Shown here: positions 2,829 through 36,362 of the stretch, one piece after another | How positions within the stretch are numbered: position 1 is the stretch's first letter | How the letters are laid out: each line of letters begins with the position of its first letter | Virus record (IMG/VR): IMGVR_UViG_3300043256_000368 | Location: 1-61,056 of that record | Length of the DNA stretch: 61,056 nucleotides | Origin: a virus | Reading direction: 5' to 3' (one strand) | The notes under the pieces: model-generated | The model's input: only the letters and a program-made list of their open reading frames with translations | Told to the model about the DNA's origin: nothing | Databases searched by the model: none | Made by a program: the position numbers and the translations under genes

Positions 2829-3682
2829 TCCTATAAAATGGAGGTTTTCGGAGCGCGGAATATGTCCGATAAGGGAGTACTACGTAACATATATTATGCG
2901 ATAAAATGTGCCACAACGTGGCACTTTGTTGCGTGACACTCTCTGGCACTACCGAACGTGGCGCGATTCGGAAATGAGAAATCATTATACATCACTCGCA
3001 AAACGCGGCCTCCCTATTTTTGAGGGGACAGACGTTTGTGCGTCCTACGGGGATGAACGACGTTTGAGTCGAGAGCGCTCGGAAAACCTGAAATGTGACG
3101 ACGGGTGTCACCAGAACAGGTGACAGCGCAAGGGACGGAGCCTTGAAGTGTTAGTGATTTCTATCCGGTCGTGTCTGCGTATCCGCAGTGTAGCAGATGG
3201 CAGCGCGGCACACTCTGGATGATTGCCGTGTTTAAGGAAGATGTCTTGAGGGCGCGGGAGACAGACCAACAACCGAGTATCCTGGTCGTCCGACCCCTGG
3301 CGAGTCGCCATGGGACGTTCCAAAGTCCTCGGCTTCTTTCCCCTCCGACCCGGGTGTGTTCCCCTTCGGGGGGGCCGCCCGGGCTTGATTTGAACCTACC
3401 GGCGGGTCCGACGTTCGTTTCCTCGTCTCCATGCGAAATGGCCCATACCGCGCCCCGAGGGTACGTCAAACTGTCGTGTACGCGGGTCGGCTCGACCATG
3501 GCCCCCGGATGTCGTCGGGCCCGTCGTTCATTTTCGGCAAACCTTTCGTTTTGGGTTCGGGGCGAGTCGGCTTCACGAAATCTAAACCCCCTCGTGGGAC
3601 GGCTCTCCCGAACACTTTGAAGATGGCCCCGTGGGGACGTTCCCTTCGGGGATGGAATATTCAGGAAAAACGGAGTGATACG
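2829..3682 (+). other. Long leader or untranslated region with strong secondary structure
   Basis: About 850 bases hold no convincing gene. Open frames here are composition-driven and lack ribosome binding sites. The first third is AT-richer and has TATAAAAT at about 2832 and a perfect GTGCCAC-AAC-GTGGCAC palindrome. The last 400 bases are GC-rich and contain two hairpins with TTCG tetraloops, CCCC-TTCG-GGGG near 3362-3373 and CCC-TTCG-GGG near 3641-3650, plus a CCCGGG pair flanking the first. The region ends just upstream of the lipoprotein gene. It could be a long structured leader, a non-coding RNA, or a relic of lost genes. Confidence 0.4.
2908..2924. promoter_or_regulatory. Perfect operator-like palindrome
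   Basis: GTGCCAC and GTGGCAC are exact reverse complements around AAC, flanked by A- and T-runs. This is the size and symmetry expected of a repressor site in an early phage region. No repressor gene is identified in this window. Confidence 0.4.
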
Positions 3683-11065: not shown

Positions 11066-11138
11066 TGCGGGGTAGAGCAGTTGGTAGCTCGCTGGGCTCA
11101 TAACCCGGAGGTCGCAGGTTCGAGTCCTGCCCCCGCTA
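11066..11138 (+). tRNA. Initiator-type tRNA-Met (anticodon CAT)
   Basis: A complete 73-base cloverleaf is visible. Acceptor TGCGGGG (11066-11072) pairs with CCCCGCT (11131-11137) except at 1:72, which is T:T. The D stem is GAGC/GCTC, the anticodon stem CTGGG/CCCGG around CTCATAA, the T stem GCAGG/CCTGC around TTCGAGT, and the discriminator is A. It has the marks of bacterial initiator tRNA: an unpaired 1:72, A11:U24 in the D stem, and three stacked G:C pairs closing the anticodon loop. CCA is not encoded. Phage tRNAs are usually elongators, so an initiator type is notable. Confidence 0.92.
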
Positions 11139-17709: not shown

Positions 17710-18730
17710 TCAACACCGTTTCGGAACAATGTCGTTTTACAGAGCCAACAGGCGATTAGGAGGTCTGATCGCCTTGTCCCTGCTGACGTCGTACCTGTGC
17801 TGCACGACGCCAGTGTACCACGCTTGGGAGCCTACATTGCCTCAAGCGGCGAAGTCAGTACCAACACAAGCCCGTCTACGCGCACCGGTGGAGCCGAAGG
17901 GGGACGTACTGGCGGTCTACCTGTATCTCCAACTCACGGATAAGTCAGAGGAGAAAGATGTCGCAATCCTGCGGGCGCTACTCAAGGTTAAGCGCAACGC
18001 ATTTACTCATGCGGTCGTTGTCGTGCCGTCGTGGCAAAGGATGCCCTACGCGTTTCGCAATCCAATCGTGCGGCGCATCATCACCACCTGCCGTGCAAAA
18101 GGCATTGCGCTGGTCTGGGGGCGGTGGCTCTGGGTGGCGCGGCCTTCGGACAAGCTGGACGCACCGATGCCCAATTCCATAAGCCACCTTGACGCCAGCT
18201 ACTACGCAGCGGCTCTTGCGAACGTGCGTGCGGAGGCCCGTTTCCTCGGGGCGGTTGGCTCATTCCTCGACGCCGAGCCCTACGGAGATAGCGCTCAGAA
18301 GCCGACTCTCAAGTTCGTTGCCCTTAACGACGTTGAGCGAGTGCTGATCAGTCTGGCAATCGCGGAGGCTGTGGCCGCGGCGGGTCCGGTGGATTGGATC
18401 TATCCAACAAGTTCGGCGAGTCCAACACGCTATCCCTGGCCAATGGCGCGTTTGGGGCGTGTCCGGCTTGACGCCAGGCCATACTACACACGTGAATCAG
18501 ATGGGGAGGTCATTGCTAGGCCGCCGGCGGGCTACAAGCACCGGCTCCAGTTGTGGGGAGCATTCGTTCTGCCAAAGCGCACGGAGATAAGTCCCGGACT
18601 GTGGACGTTGAACATTAGTGATGCGAAACGGCTGGATCCTAATGTGATGCGACAAAAGCACGAGCATTGCATGGGTATTTGGCTCTACACCGGCAACGAA
18701 ACCGCAAAAGTCCTGGCCGCTTGGAACTAA
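17696..18730 (+). CDS. Exported protein, possible TIM-barrel hydrolase-like
   Basis: The 344-residue protein starts at an ATG preceded by AAAGGAG. A hydrophobic segment at residues about 22-40 (LGGLIALSLLTSYLCC) followed by a double cysteine suggests export, perhaps as a lipoprotein, after a long N-region. The rest has alternating strands and helices: LAVYLYLQLT, HAVVVVPSWQRMP, GIALVWGRWLWVARP, then FLGAVGSFLDAEPYG, VDWIYPTSSA and MGIWLYTGN. The LDAEPYG strand end has the acidic pair expected of a glycoside-hydrolase-like barrel, but no specific family is recognised. A phage enzyme acting on surface glycans, or a surface-blocking protein, would fit. Both are inference. Confidence 0.6.
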   Translation: MTGCDQHRFGTMSFYRANRRLGGLIALSLLTSYLCCTTPVYHAWEPTLPQAAKSVPTQARLRAPVEPKGDVLAVYLYLQLTDKSEEKDVAILRALLKVKRNAFTHAVVVVPSWQRMPYAFRNPIVRRIITTCRAKGIALVWGRWLWVARPSDKLDAPMPNSISHLDASYYAAALANVRAEARFLGAVGSFLDAEPYGDSAQKPTLKFVALNDVERVLISLAIAEAVAAAGPVDWIYPTSSASPTRYPWPMARLGRVRLDARPYYTRESDGEVIARPPAGYKHRLQLWGAFVLPKRTEISPGLWTLNISDAKRLDPNVMRQKHEHCMGIWLYTGNETAKVLAAWN

Positions 18731-27032: not shown

Positions 27033-27572
27033 ATGAACAATTGGACGATCGAGATGACAAGCAAGGCAATCGAGCTAGAGCCCCCGTTGGTTGGTCCTGC
27101 CTATGCGGTTGCGAACCAGATTGTTGACGGTCCGGCGCTCTACCATCAATTGACACCGGGGTACCTGGTAACGTTGGTCTCTGCGGCCGGCGCCAGAATA
27201 CGCATCTCGGGGGACGTGGAGATTCAGCGAGCGTTCAGAGCAGTAGCTTCTAGGGATCAGGATCTCTTAGATCAAGTAATCGCATCGGGGACGCCCTTAT
27301 CGGAGAACGAGCCGGATAAAAAACCGACAATTGTGGGAGAACTAAATCGGTTGGAGTTTCACGAGTGTGTTGTGAGTGGTATCGATTATCGCACGCCGGG
27401 AGGTAGCCGGTTCGACGGTGGCGACTTCGCTATAACGTTGAACGTTGCGCTTGATCCGGGATGGAGTCAAGCCGATATCGATCGAATCGCCCACGTCATC
27501 CTTGGACATCGGGTGAAAATGACGTTGGACGTTATCGTGGAGACAGACGGTGGCGCGCGGTCGCAAGCCTAA
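27033..27572 (+). CDS. Hypothetical protein upstream of the terminase
   Basis: A 179-residue beta-rich protein (LVTLVSAAGARIRISGDVE, then FAITLNVALDPGW and KMTLDVIVE) follows the winged-helix-like gene by three bases. Its end overlaps the terminase small-subunit start by 23 bases. I recognise no family. Its position suggests it belongs to the late or packaging operon. Confidence 0.55.
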   Translation: MNNWTIEMTSKAIELEPPLVGPAYAVANQIVDGPALYHQLTPGYLVTLVSAAGARIRISGDVEIQRAFRAVASRDQDLLDQVIASGTPLSENEPDKKPTIVGELNRLEFHECVVSGIDYRTPGGSRFDGGDFAITLNVALDPGWSQADIDRIAHVILGHRVKMTLDVIVETDGGARSQA

Positions 27573-28050
27573 AACGGTTACGGGGCTGCAACTTGCCGGA
27601 AGCCGACGCGTTCCAAAGACGACTGCTACTCGGCCCGCCGACAGAAGGACTTCACCACCGGCCCGGGAACCGGAATGGCTGGATGCAACGGGCAAGAAGA
27701 AATGGAGAGAACTGCACAGGTTGCTGAGCTTGCACGGGGTCATCGACACGACCGATGCAGGCGTGTTGGCGCGATATTGTGACACGTATGCCCGATGGCG
27801 AGCCGCGCGACACCACACGCACGTTTACGGAGAATGCTACTCCGTCACCGATAAGAATGGGAACGTCCGGTGGATCCGGTACCACGAATCTCGCGTCTCG
27901 TCGGAGTTGCTGAGGGCGTTGTCGGATATGGAACAACAGATGGGTCTCACGCCGATGTCCCGACCACGGATTCAAACGAACCCGGGTGAGTCGCCGGCGG
28001 AAGAGGGCGACGGCAAAGGGAGGCCGACGGGGTTGGAGAAGTATTCCTGA
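27550..28050 (+). CDS. terS: Terminase small subunit (P27-like)
   Basis: The 166-residue protein starts at a GTG inside the preceding gene. It has the typical P27-family order: basic RGRKPKTVTGLQLAGS, a proline-rich link ending in EPEWLDATGKKKWRELHRLL, GVIDTTDAGVLARYCDTYARW, and a C-terminal region with HESRVSSELLRALSDMEQQMGLTPMSR. The small subunit binds the packaging site and gives the large subunit its DNA. It precedes the large subunit by 1.3 kb, with a structured RNA and five small genes between, which is unusual. Confidence 0.9.
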   Translation: MARGRKPKTVTGLQLAGSRRVPKTTATRPADRRTSPPAREPEWLDATGKKKWRELHRLLSLHGVIDTTDAGVLARYCDTYARWRAARHHTHVYGECYSVTDKNGNVRWIRYHESRVSSELLRALSDMEQQMGLTPMSRPRIQTNPGESPAEEGDGKGRPTGLEKYS

Positions 28051-28052
28051 CA

Positions 28053-28277
28053 ATGGGTAGGCTGCAAGACGTTCCGAAACAGACACCATCACCGAAGCCT
28101 GTCGCTTGCCCAAGGTGTAGACGGCGAGATGTGCCGATCGTGTGGGGCGTCAACCCTTACGTGCGTGTCGTGATGGGCCATATTACCTGGGACTGGCGGT
28201 GCAAGCCGTGCCGGGACAAAGCGGAAGATGAACTGGTCACAAGACCGGTGAAGTCTAACAACGAAAGAACAACGTGA
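28053..28277 (+). CDS. Small zinc-finger protein
   Basis: The 74-residue protein starts two bases after the small-subunit stop. It has CPRCRRRDVPIVWG and WRCKPCRDK, two CxxC pairs about 30 residues apart. Basic residues surround both. No family is recognised. The structured RNA begins directly after its TGA. Confidence 0.6.
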   Translation: MGRLQDVPKQTPSPKPVACPRCRRRDVPIVWGVNPYVRVVMGHITWDWRCKPCRDKAEDELVTRPVKSNNERTT

Positions 28278-28459
28278 GGTCTCGGGAGAAACGTGTCTGG
28301 TGAAACGTGGCGCAAGTAGGCGCGGCGGTCGATGCCTACGCGAAGAAATCAATGAGCGGTCGAACTTGGGAAATCTGCGTGGTTGGATGACCGCACAGGC
28401 AGCGCAGCCCAAGAGAACCCATTTCGATCCGGTCGGTTCGATTCCGACCTCCTGAGACC
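28278..28459 (+). ncRNA. Structured RNA with tRNA-like ends and a possible pseudoknot
   Basis: The whole gap between two genes folds. GGTCTCGGGAG (28278-28288) pairs with CTCCTGAGACC (28449-28459), eleven pairs with one G:U. Just inside the 3' strand is a perfect T-arm-like hairpin, GGTCGG-TTCGATT-CCGACC (28431-28449). Just inside the 5' strand is a D-arm-like ACGT-loop-ACGT with GG in the loop. Between them are a GTAGGC/GCCTAC hairpin (28316-28339, extended by CGC/GCG) and an 11-pair stem of CTTGGG/CCCAAG plus CTGCG/CGCAG (28365-28413) whose loop holds GACCGC, complementary to GCGGTC at 28356 and at 28325, giving a pseudoknot. No anticodon arm of normal geometry and no CCA are visible. It may be a tRNA-like regulatory RNA, an intron-bearing tRNA, or a leader of the next gene. 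Confidence 0.55.
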
Positions 28460-28462
28460 CCT

Positions 28463-28741
28463 ATGAAAGTCGAGTTACTCAGAACCGATTGGAACATGAA
28501 CCAACTCATCATTAAGGTTCTTGCAAGGATGCGCGTCCTAGACCCGGCGTTGCGTTACCCAAGCATAATGTTCATCGATTTGGTAATCAGCCACAATCTT
28601 CGGTGTGTCGACCTCGAGCTGCTTCTCGCTTCCGCAGACGCGAACTTCTGGGAGGATGTGGTGTTCATCGCTCAGAATTTGGACCGAAGGACCGGAACTC
28701 TAGGAGCCTGTCCACACTCGTGCCCCCGCGGTGCGCCATGA
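28463..28741 (+). CDS. Hypothetical protein after the structured RNA
   Basis: A 92-residue helical protein begins three bases after the structured RNA, with no good ribosome binding site between, so translation probably depends on that RNA. Visible parts are NQLIIKVLARMRVLDP, then IDLVISHNLRCVDLELLLASA and a C-terminal ACPHSCP. No family is recognised. Confidence 0.5.
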   Translation: MKVELLRTDWNMNQLIIKVLARMRVLDPALRYPSIMFIDLVISHNLRCVDLELLLASADANFWEDVVFIAQNLDRRTGTLGACPHSCPRGAP

Positions 28742-29337: not shown

Positions 29338-31083
29338 GTGCATCCTGGACCGTCGATGGTAGCCGCGAAAAGTCCGCGAAAACGTCGCACACCGGTCAAG
29401 AAGCCCCGTACTCCATCCAAACCAAGTCGTCTCGCCAAGGCGAAACTAGCATTCGTAGAGCAAGGCGCCGACTGGAAAACCTGGGTTCGCAACGGAAACG
29501 ATGAGCGGGCAGCGTTCGAGGGGTGTGTGCCCGACGTTCTCGAAGCAGATAAGAAAGTAGCCTTTTTCGAGGAAGTCCTTGTCCTGACCAAGGACGGTCC
29601 GGTTCGGCCTTTCAAACTCGCCCCGTTTCAGGAACACGCCATCATCCGCCCACTGTTTGGCTGGAAGCGAGCCGACGGCCGGCGACGTTTCACCCACGCC
29701 TCCATCTGGATGCCACAAGGCAACGGGAAAACGACGTTAGCCGCAGGCATCACCGCGGTGCTCCTGTTGGCCGACGGTCAACGACGGGCCAAAATCTATT
29801 CCGCCGCCAACGACCGGGACCAGGCCGCATACATTTTCGATGAGTTGGCGATGATGGCGACCTGCTCCCCGATTCTGAAAAACCGTCTGAGTATCTGGAA
29901 GTCCACCAAAACCATCGTCTACAACGAAGTCTTGAACAGGTACAAGGCGATTTCCGCTGACGCCGCCTCCGCGGAGGGCAAGGCGCCGCACGGTCTAGTG
30001 ATCGATGAGATTCACGCATTCAACGACGCGGGCCGACGTCTCTTCGAAGCCCTCAAGTTCACGATGACGAAGTGCTTCAACAGCTTATGGGTGACGATCT
30101 CCACCGCCGGCAGAGCAATGGAGGGGATCGGGTGGGAGGAATATCAAAAGGCCCGCTCCGTTTGGGCCGGCCAGAACGAAGAGTCTTGGTGGAAATTCGT
30201 CTTTATCGCGGAAGCCGCAGTCGAGGATGATTGGACGGATCCGAAGGTTTGGAAGTCATCGAACCCGGCCATGGGGGTCACAATCACCATGGATCGTATG
30301 AAAGAGGACTTCCTGGAGGCATCACAATCGCCTCACGATGAGCTTATCTTTCGGCAGCGAAGGCTAAATCAGTGGACCAGCATCTCGGAGGATTTCATTC
30401 CGGCGAAGGCCTGGGACAAGTGCGGACGTGATCTGACGTTGGACGATTTGAAGGGAAAACGTTGCTGGGCCGGGTTGGATCTGTCGAGCGTATCCGACAC
30501 CAGTTGCCTATGCCTGGTGTTCAAACTGGAGGCGGACCTTCCTTTTGTGTGGCCGTTCTTCTGGATCCCCAGGTACGACAAGGTGAATCGTCCGCGCTCG
30601 GATATTGCTGAATTCATCGCGTGGGGGCACGCGGGTCATATCGAAGTGGTCGAGTCAAATGTGATCGACTATGCCGCCATCCGGGCCAAGATCAACGTCC
30701 TGAGAACGGAGTTCGGAGTCGAGGGGGTGGCTGCGGATCCGATGTTCGCCGGCCAGCTTCTACAGGAGCTCGAGGACGACGACCGAATACCGTCCTATGA
30801 GCACAAACAGAATTTCACTCAGATGACGGAACCGTGCCTGGATTACCAGCGCCGGTGCGTTTCGCAGAGATTGGCCCATGGCCGACATCCGGTACTTGAT
30901 AACCAAATGAGTCATGTCACACTGAAGAACGGGCAGGGAGACACGGTGATGCCGAAACGCGACAAAAGCCGCTGGCGAATCGACGGGCCTGTGGCGGCCA
31001 TCATGGCTCTGAATATGTTTATCAAGTTCAAGGACAAGCCTAAACCCCGCGGCGGGATGACTCGAGGCGTCGTATGGGTCTAA
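29338..31083 (+). CDS. terL: Terminase large subunit (HK97-like)
   Basis: The 581-residue protein is the packaging motor ATPase and nuclease. The ATPase has Walker A MPQGNGKTTL (about residue 125) and Walker B GLVIDEIHAF. The C-terminal nuclease, with an RNase H-like fold, has GLDLSSVSDTSCLCLVF, VAADPMFAGQ and the final WRIDGPVAAIMALNM. The basic N-terminus (SPRKRRTPVKKPRTPSKPSR) is typical of TerL linkers. The GTG at 29338 and the ATG at 29356 are both possible starts, and neither has a clear ribosome binding site. It packages DNA into the prohead through the portal encoded downstream. Confidence 0.95.
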   Translation: MHPGPSMVAAKSPRKRRTPVKKPRTPSKPSRLAKAKLAFVEQGADWKTWVRNGNDERAAFEGCVPDVLEADKKVAFFEEVLVLTKDGPVRPFKLAPFQEHAIIRPLFGWKRADGRRRFTHASIWMPQGNGKTTLAAGITAVLLLADGQRRAKIYSAANDRDQAAYIFDELAMMATCSPILKNRLSIWKSTKTIVYNEVLNRYKAISADAASAEGKAPHGLVIDEIHAFNDAGRRLFEALKFTMTKCFNSLWVTISTAGRAMEGIGWEEYQKARSVWAGQNEESWWKFVFIAEAAVEDDWTDPKVWKSSNPAMGVTITMDRMKEDFLEASQSPHDELIFRQRRLNQWTSISEDFIPAKAWDKCGRDLTLDDLKGKRCWAGLDLSSVSDTSCLCLVFKLEADLPFVWPFFWIPRYDKVNRPRSDIAEFIAWGHAGHIEVVESNVIDYAAIRAKINVLRTEFGVEGVAADPMFAGQLLQELEDDDRIPSYEHKQNFTQMTEPCLDYQRRCVSQRLAHGRHPVLDNQMSHVTLKNGQGDTVMPKRDKSRWRIDGPVAAIMALNMFIKFKDKPKPRGGMTRGVVWV

Positions 31084-35939: not shown

Positions 35940-36312
35940 CGGTGCGATCGATCGTTTGAGCGTTTGTCCCCCGCTGTGCCCCGTCTCGCCCCGTCCATGG
36001 CCCATAGCCGCTCGCGGGGTCATTTTTTATCCGACTTTTGGTTTGTCGTGTCCTGCTTTACTGTCAGTGGGCCGTTGGGGCGACGTATGCGCAACCGTTG
36101 CCGTTAGGCAAACACCTCTACGGCATTGCGTTCAACCTTTGAATCTGCCAACCTTCGAACCACGTGAATAGGAAATATGCTCTGCCGATTTGACAGGGCC
36201 CATCGGCGCAGTATACTTCCCTCAGTTTGAAGCTGTCCGAGACGTGTGGGTGTCAGCCCCGATCTTAGATGATCAAACGCGTAGCGGCGGCGGTGGAAAA
36301 CGATCCGATTAG
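35940..36312 (+). other. Non-coding gap before the capsid terminator
   Basis: About 370 bases without a supported gene. A 71-codon frame (35956-36171) lacks a good ribosome binding site. I see no tRNA or convincing promoter. The gap ends at the strong terminator. Confidence 0.5.
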
Positions 36313-36362
36313 ATTCGGCGCGGACTGCCATCATAGGTGATGGTCCGCGCCGAATTTCTTTT
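36313..36362 (+). terminator. Strong intrinsic terminator before the capsid gene
   Basis: ATTCGGCGCGGA pairs with TCCGCGCCGAAT (12 pairs), extended by CCATCA/TGATGG around a TAGG loop with a three-base bulge, followed by TTCTTTT. This is a textbook intrinsic terminator. It stands only about 80 bases before the capsid ATG, so the capsid operon probably has its own promoter in the intervening segment, or expression is controlled by antitermination. Confidence 0.85.

Follow-up and report, generated by a model that had tools for sequence, protein, structure and literature searches.

Bacterial RNase P also cleaves RNAs such as pre-tmRNA, phage M3 RNA, the pre-C4 RNA of P1/P7 and polycistronic operon mRNAs (PMC11143913, PMC4919922), with M3 RNA being assigned to phi80 by a reference title in these sources (PMC11143913, PMC4919922). 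Cleavage sites inside polycistronic operon mRNAs act in cis within the coding transcript, at least as far as Li and Altman (2003) are cited in PMC11143913. The enzyme reads the stack formed by the T-stem-loop and the acceptor as a length ruler (PMC4919913). In the present study, we analysed one IMG/VR virus record of 61,056 bases (hereafter 'the window', meaning this whole stretch of DNA) that carries a 182-nt element at 28278-28459 on the + strand. Its tRNA-like shell and its position in the terminase operon invite comparison with these systems.

Locus and architecture of the element

The element sits in a co-directional series of genes, in the order TerS, zinc-ribbon-like ORF, RNA, DUF6874, small ORFs, TerL, portal, protease and capsid. 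The features referred to below are:

27550-28050, + strand: terminase small subunit gene, TerS (phrog_83, 6.9e-22; PF05119, 7.8e-16)
28053-28277, + strand: 74-aa zinc-ribbon-like ORF (two CxxC pairs); its stop codon directly adjoins the RNA
28278-28288 with 28449-28459, + strand: closing (acceptor-like) helix, 11 bp, GGTCTCGGGAG with CTCCTGAGACC, one G-U pair (pair probability 0.68-1.0)
28291-28308, + strand: D-arm-like hairpin ACGT-GTCTGGTGAA-ACGT (from the sequence and the descriptor test; probability about 0.11)
28311-28342, + strand: anticodon-position hairpin CGC-AA-GTAGGC / GCCTAC-GCG, 12-nt loop (probability about 0.1-0.2)
28325-28330, + strand: GCGGTC copy 1, in the loop of that hairpin (from the sequence)
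28356-28361, + strand: GCGGTC copy 2, overlapping the variable-arm helix (from the fold)
28357-28364, + strand: giant variable-arm helix, 5' strand CGGTCGAA (pair probability about 0.6-0.99)
28365-28370 with 28408-28413, + strand: inner stem CTTGGG/CCCAAG (probability 0.31)
28375-28379 with 28403-28407, + strand: inner stem CTGCG/CGCAG (probability 0.06)
28389-28394, + strand: GACCGC, with two alternative perfect GCGGTC partners (from the sequence and the fold)
28423-28431, + strand: giant variable-arm helix, 3' strand TTCGA-T-CCG, abutting the T-arm (probability about 0.6-0.99)
28432-28448, + strand: T-arm GTCGG-TTCGATT-CCGAC (probability 0.82)
28463-28741, + strand: 92-aa DUF6874 ORF (PF21779, 2.4e-9)
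29338-31083, + strand: terminase large subunit gene, TerL (phrog_9, 3e-130)

The borders of the RNA match the neighbouring genes as the preliminary description had placed them: the upstream TGA stop occupies 28275-28277, the RNA starts with the very next base, 28278, and only the three bases CCT separate the closing helix from the DUF6874 ATG at 28463. No Shine-Dalgarno-like stretch lies immediately 5' of this ATG in the sequence, nor was a promoter-like or terminator-like site found near the element, which matches the expectation for the inside of an operon. A search against phrog and Pfam profiles returned no family match for the 74-aa ORF. The host of this phage is probably a planctomycete, as suggested by dockerin-like C-termini (GDLDGDFDVDLADYA, read by eye and without a dockerin Pfam match) and by TerL relatives in planctomycete genomes. 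Elsewhere in the window, a tRNA-Met(cat) at 11066-11138 is the only canonical tRNA of the record according to both ARAGORN and Rfam, and a very stable, terminator-like hairpin at 36311-36360 (GATTCGGCGCGGAC...GTCCGCGCCGAAT, then TTTCTTTT), located just 5' of the major capsid gene (36369), has the lowest folding z-score among the sampled windows of the record.

Both the 11-pair closing helix and the perfect T-arm with its TTCGATT loop, as described previously, were confirmed in the sequence, and the closing helix stacks on the T-arm without a gap. The T-arm stem may alternatively comprise 6 bp, with 28431 and 28449 paired instead. The D-arm-like hairpin has 4 bp and a 10-nt loop, starts two bases past the 5' closing strand (the tRNA spacing) and carries a GG four bases into the loop, i.e. 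at the place of G18G19; positions 8, 10, 14 and 15 in this region deviate from the tRNA consensus. Although present in the sequence, this hairpin is a minority state (P 0.11) in the nearest-neighbour fold, so its assignment as a D-arm rests on pattern rather than energy. D-arms are often minority states when tRNA-like RNAs are folded with plain energy models, which ignore tertiary contacts. The CCA is not encoded at the 3' end of the RNA.

The interior called for more revision. The preliminary description had found the anticodon arm missing, which holds in that there is no 7-nt anticodon-type loop, yet the hairpin at 28311-28342 occupies that very place. An A-rich linker leads from this hairpin to an 8-bp helix that had been overlooked, lies beside the T-arm in a position like that of the variable arm of class II tRNAs and encloses the CTTGGG/CCCAAG and CTGCG/CGCAG stems. 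Both enclosed stems are minority states (P 0.31 and 0.06). The pseudoknot suggested between GCGGTC at 28356-28361 and GACCGC is doubtful, since the competing variable-arm helix (P about 0.6-0.99) excludes it. GCGGTC copy 1 is a possible kissing partner of GACCGC instead: this loop-loop contact would be compatible with all other stems, and either GCGGTC/GACCGC duplex amounts to -9.6 kcal/mol. In the partition function, the closing helix, the T-arm and the variable-arm helix dominate and the remaining stems are in the minority. Overall, the structure given in the preliminary description is partly confirmed, in a corrected form with a giant variable arm beside the T-arm.

To gauge chance, we simulated sequence with the dinucleotide composition of the window. 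Among 600 such strands, a helix of 11 bp or more stacked directly on a T-arm, all within 260 nt, turned up 4 times (about 0.7%). When a D-arm with GG at tRNA spacing was included, closing helices of at least 9 bp were absent from all 250 simulated whole windows, and relaxing the helix to at least 7 bp gave four matches in the same number of windows. A similar descriptor had no match in 6.3 Mb of simulated control sequence matched to all loci studied. As the descriptor was written after the element had been seen, these figures favour the element somewhat. The description of the RNA as tRNA-like is supported by this chance test, and we regard the tRNA-like element as real and statistically well supported. 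Of 400 windows sampled along the record, five equalled or undercut the folding energy of the element (z -3.6), which makes it mildly unusual and weak evidence by itself.

The element does not belong to a known RNA family. A search against all Rfam families at gathering and E-value thresholds, a check that the preliminary description had recommended, yielded no match above threshold at 28278-28459 (the sole match of the record being the tRNA-Met at 11066), and sub-threshold matches to tRNA-Sec (14.8 bits against 47) and hya were taken as chance. Neither the RF00005 covariance model nor the packaging-RNA families of Rfam (phi29-type pRNA) matched. At default stringency, the tRNA, intron tRNA (introns of 0-300 nt) and tmRNA modes of ARAGORN were likewise empty at the element. 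The same run does find intron tRNAs in other phages, and the earlier suggestion of an intron-containing tRNA is not supported at this stringency. The judgement that the RNA is too small for tmRNA is supported by the lack of an RF00023 match and of tmRNA-mode calls, also among the relaxed-threshold output listed. Given its acceptor length (11 instead of 7 bp), its loop in the anticodon position (12 instead of 7 nt) and the failure to match RF00005, we did not file the RNA as a tRNA; it may work like one all the same. A coding reading was rejected: stops interrupt all three + frames, and the ORF on the reverse strand is of the kind that usually mirrors a T-arm. Besides, a reading as an integration site (a tRNA 3' half as attP) was discarded, since it leaves the 11-bp pairing with the 5' end unexplained.

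Search for relatives and similar elements in other phages

Searches for relatives of the 182-nt RNA returned no homologue. The blastn search of phage records gave short matches of low coverage only, some at tRNA genes. Single-sequence covariance models (R1/R2) found none in sets of 298 and 392 Planctomycetota genomes, in 6 genomes with related proviruses or in 38 complete virus records, and scans of virus contigs were equally negative. Scanning TerL- or TerS-related loci with the covariance model revealed neither a homologue nor a related terminase locus with an element in the same place. Among individual candidates, a covariance match in L429 was rejected as lying antisense inside mutL, those in L267 and L268 were taken as chance on account of poor alignments, and a match in L269 reached 18.3 bits. 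Matches to a D-loop/T-loop pattern in virus contigs were mostly adjacent tRNA genes or intron tRNAs, and a 17-mer from the A-rich linker matched four loci, none of them with the RNA. No high-identity relatives of the phage were found via TerL or TerS, the nearest TerL being about 40% identical. Because the phage is so isolated, the failure to find homologues does not weigh heavily against a function.

An element of similar plan was found in a distantly related IMG/VR phage (L349; TerL 34% identical). This 130-nt intergenic element (3189-3320) comprises an 8-bp acceptor, a D-arm (AACG-ATCAGG-CGTT), a hairpin in the anticodon place (GCGGG-TTCGAAT-CCCGGC), a giant variable arm and a T-arm, and ARAGORN calls no tRNA there. 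A descriptor of D-arm plus acceptor (at least 8 bp) matched once in 1000 simulated copies of the locus, and the fold of the element is unremarkable (z-score -1.56). About 150 bases beyond it, an acceptor/T-arm minihelix (3467-3510; AGCCGGC...GGGCGG-TTTGATT-CCGCCC-GCCGGCT) ends one base 5' of the ATG of a helicase-loader-like gene. The two elements have in common the acceptor, the D-arm with GG, the hairpin in the anticodon place, the giant variable arm, the T-arm and the intergenic location, whereas the L349 element is 130 nt long, occupies another genomic place and does not clearly resemble the window RNA in sequence. In light of the weak z-score and the lack of clear sequence similarity, L349 supports the plan rather than homology, and this similarity of plan lends the earlier idea of a new phage RNA class some weight. 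An involvement of the window RNA in translating the packaging genes, as the preliminary description proposed, is conceivable.

Other tRNA-like elements were observed in phages of different kinds. In lambdoid prophages (L106:2222-2394, from IMGVR_UViG_2671181027_000004; L146:1204-1379; L299), the early left leader contains an RNA of about 155 nt that is tRNA-like, with a long stem and a TTCGATT T-arm; at gathering thresholds, no Rfam family matched it. The L106 copy is flanked by nut-like boxA/boxB on one side and by an N-like gene on the other; L299 has the same RNA as L146 in different flanks, and the stems of L106 and L146 differ with compensation (e.g. T-stem TGTGG/CCACA versus TGGGG/CCTCA). 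Several lambdoid phages, namely L304 (phi80), L305 (CobraSix), L306 (HK639), L308 and L309, have much the same outer stem (GGAATGTTTTGG...CCAAAGCATTTCTCCCGCATCAGCGGG or a variant of it) around different inserts; these inserts resemble exchangeable cassettes, and that of HK639 is a tRNA-Ile(gat) according to ARAGORN. These outer-stem elements may be related to the old phi80 M3 RNA.

Besides, ARAGORN's intron mode calls tRNAs with anticodon-loop introns of about 60-70 nt in tRNA-rich phages (L162:726, L178:509 and L156), with L156 requiring relaxed stringency. In a phage of 436 kb, three tRNAs (L122:3107, 3265 and 3589) possess a common conserved insert of about 50 nt (CCCGGCATCGCACCTCGC...AAGCGGTTCCTACAAGC), apparently in the variable loop and not in the anticodon loop. 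Lastly, a tRNA-like match in L425 (about 18282-18361) has an 11-bp acceptor pairing (GTGTGTCCCAG/CTGGGACACAC), which exceeds 7 bp by four pairs, just like the closing helix of the window RNA.

Possible roles in the terminase operon

We tentatively read the window RNA as a cis-acting element that mimics a pre-tRNA and serves to process or insulate the terminase operon transcript, and would assign this reading a probability of roughly 0.35. In the nascent operon transcript, this segment would take on the shape of a tRNA, and RNase P, RNase Z or RNase III could recognise its elbow and its 16-bp stack. Cuts at or near both ends of the RNA would separate the TerS/zinc-ribbon message from the message running from DUF6874 to TerL, and the former would end in a stable 3' helix. 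The second message would have its 5' end no more than about 3 nt from the DUF6874 ATG and hence be near-leaderless, as suggested by the distance of that ATG and the lack of a Shine-Dalgarno-like sequence, and the excised RNA may persist. Several observations point to such processing, namely the absence of the full descriptor (closing helix of at least 9 bp) from the simulated windows, the exact filling of a gap between co-directional genes that has no promoter- or terminator-like site, the RNase P precedents, and the L349 element with its minihelix.

On the other hand, the lack of homologues and the minority status of the D-arm in the plain folding model speak against a processing element. The choice of nuclease is also affected by the structure itself. 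While the stack that RNase P recognises is present, the four extra pairs cover the site expected for a 7-bp stem (according to the ruler in PMC4919913). With this cut site buried in the 11-bp helix and no encoded CCA, RNase P might be an inefficient cutter here, in which case RNase III or RNase Z would be needed as the candidate cutter, or there would be no cutter.

As a doubtful extension of the processing reading, some phages may carry a distinct class of intergenic RNAs that imitate tRNA without an anticodon, have oversized variable arms and act as processing or insulator cassettes, relying on host tRNA-recognising enzymes to cut the operon mRNA of the phage. Two members would then be known in the window RNA and the L349 element, and the tRNA-like elements of the lambdoid N leader would form a parallel case.

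A stand-alone stable RNA, processed from the operon transcript to act in trans, whether on host ribosomes, on tRNA enzymes or in virion assembly (e.g. as a packaging RNA), appears unlikely. Its gene-like size, sharp borders with both neighbours, complex interior with an alternative GCGGTC/GACCGC pairing and location in the terminase operon would suit such an RNA, yet there is no promoter- or terminator-like site, no match to Rfam including its packaging-RNA families, and no counterpart at the same place in related terminase loci. Next in line, and quite unlikely, is translational or mRNA-stability control of the DUF6874 gene in cis, where the RNA would be a binding site or a barrier by virtue of its fold and not a nuclease substrate. 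The end of the helix three nt before an ATG that has no Shine-Dalgarno-like stretch just 5' of it would fit, and the two mutually exclusive partners of GACCGC could form a switch; however, this switch is based on one sequence, and a plain barrier would have no use for a T-loop or the GG of the D-loop.

It is distinctly improbable that the element is the functionless remnant of a decaying gene for tRNA or tmRNA that the phage captured and that has expanded since then. It did keep a T-arm, a D-arm and a stacked acceptor, phages commonly carry tRNA genes, and a normal tRNA-Met resides at 11066 in the window; but decay would not be expected to retain or gain a perfect 11-bp helix and a perfect T-stem while losing the anticodon, nor to produce borders that match the neighbouring genes exactly. 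Finally, a chance structure in an intergenic spacer is very unlikely: though the folding energy matched by 5 of 400 windows, the lack of a homologue, the 0.7% of simulated strands with T-arm and 11-bp helix alone and the selection of the element out of 61 kb by the preliminary description all make room for it, the full descriptor was absent from the 250 simulated windows and its similar counterpart from the control sequence.

Should the RNA be cut or bound as a tRNA, this would mean that a phage imitates tRNA within a structural operon so as to split up its mRNA or set its timing. The element would also offer a concrete substrate with which to probe the tolerance of RNase P, RNase Z and RNase III for lengthened acceptor stems. 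As anticodon-less tRNA mimics evade tRNA finders and Rfam, others may be overlooked. Were it merely a fossil or a spacer fold, it would be a curiosity.

Comparison with known RNAs

With tRNA (RF00005), the window RNA has in common the T-arm, the D-arm with GG, an acceptor-like helix stacked on the T-arm, the 2-nt linker and a long variable arm of class II type. It differs in its 11-bp (instead of 7-bp) acceptor and its 12-nt loop in place of the 7-nt anticodon loop, as well as in its length of 182 nt, the lack of CCA and the missing RF00005 match. The resemblance to tmRNA (RF00023) consists in tRNA-like ends around a large structured interior and in a helix abutting the T-arm, whereas the window RNA has half the length, a true D-stem, no resume or tag frame in ARAGORN and no RF00023 match. 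M3 RNA (phi80) and pre-C4 RNA (P1/P7) are non-tRNA phage RNAs cut by host RNase P (PMC11143913, PMC4919922). We found no sequence relation of the window RNA to either, and its own cleavage by RNase P is hypothetical. The RNase P sites in operon mRNAs are short and loosely tRNA-like; compared with these, the window RNA has a full T-arm and a D-arm.
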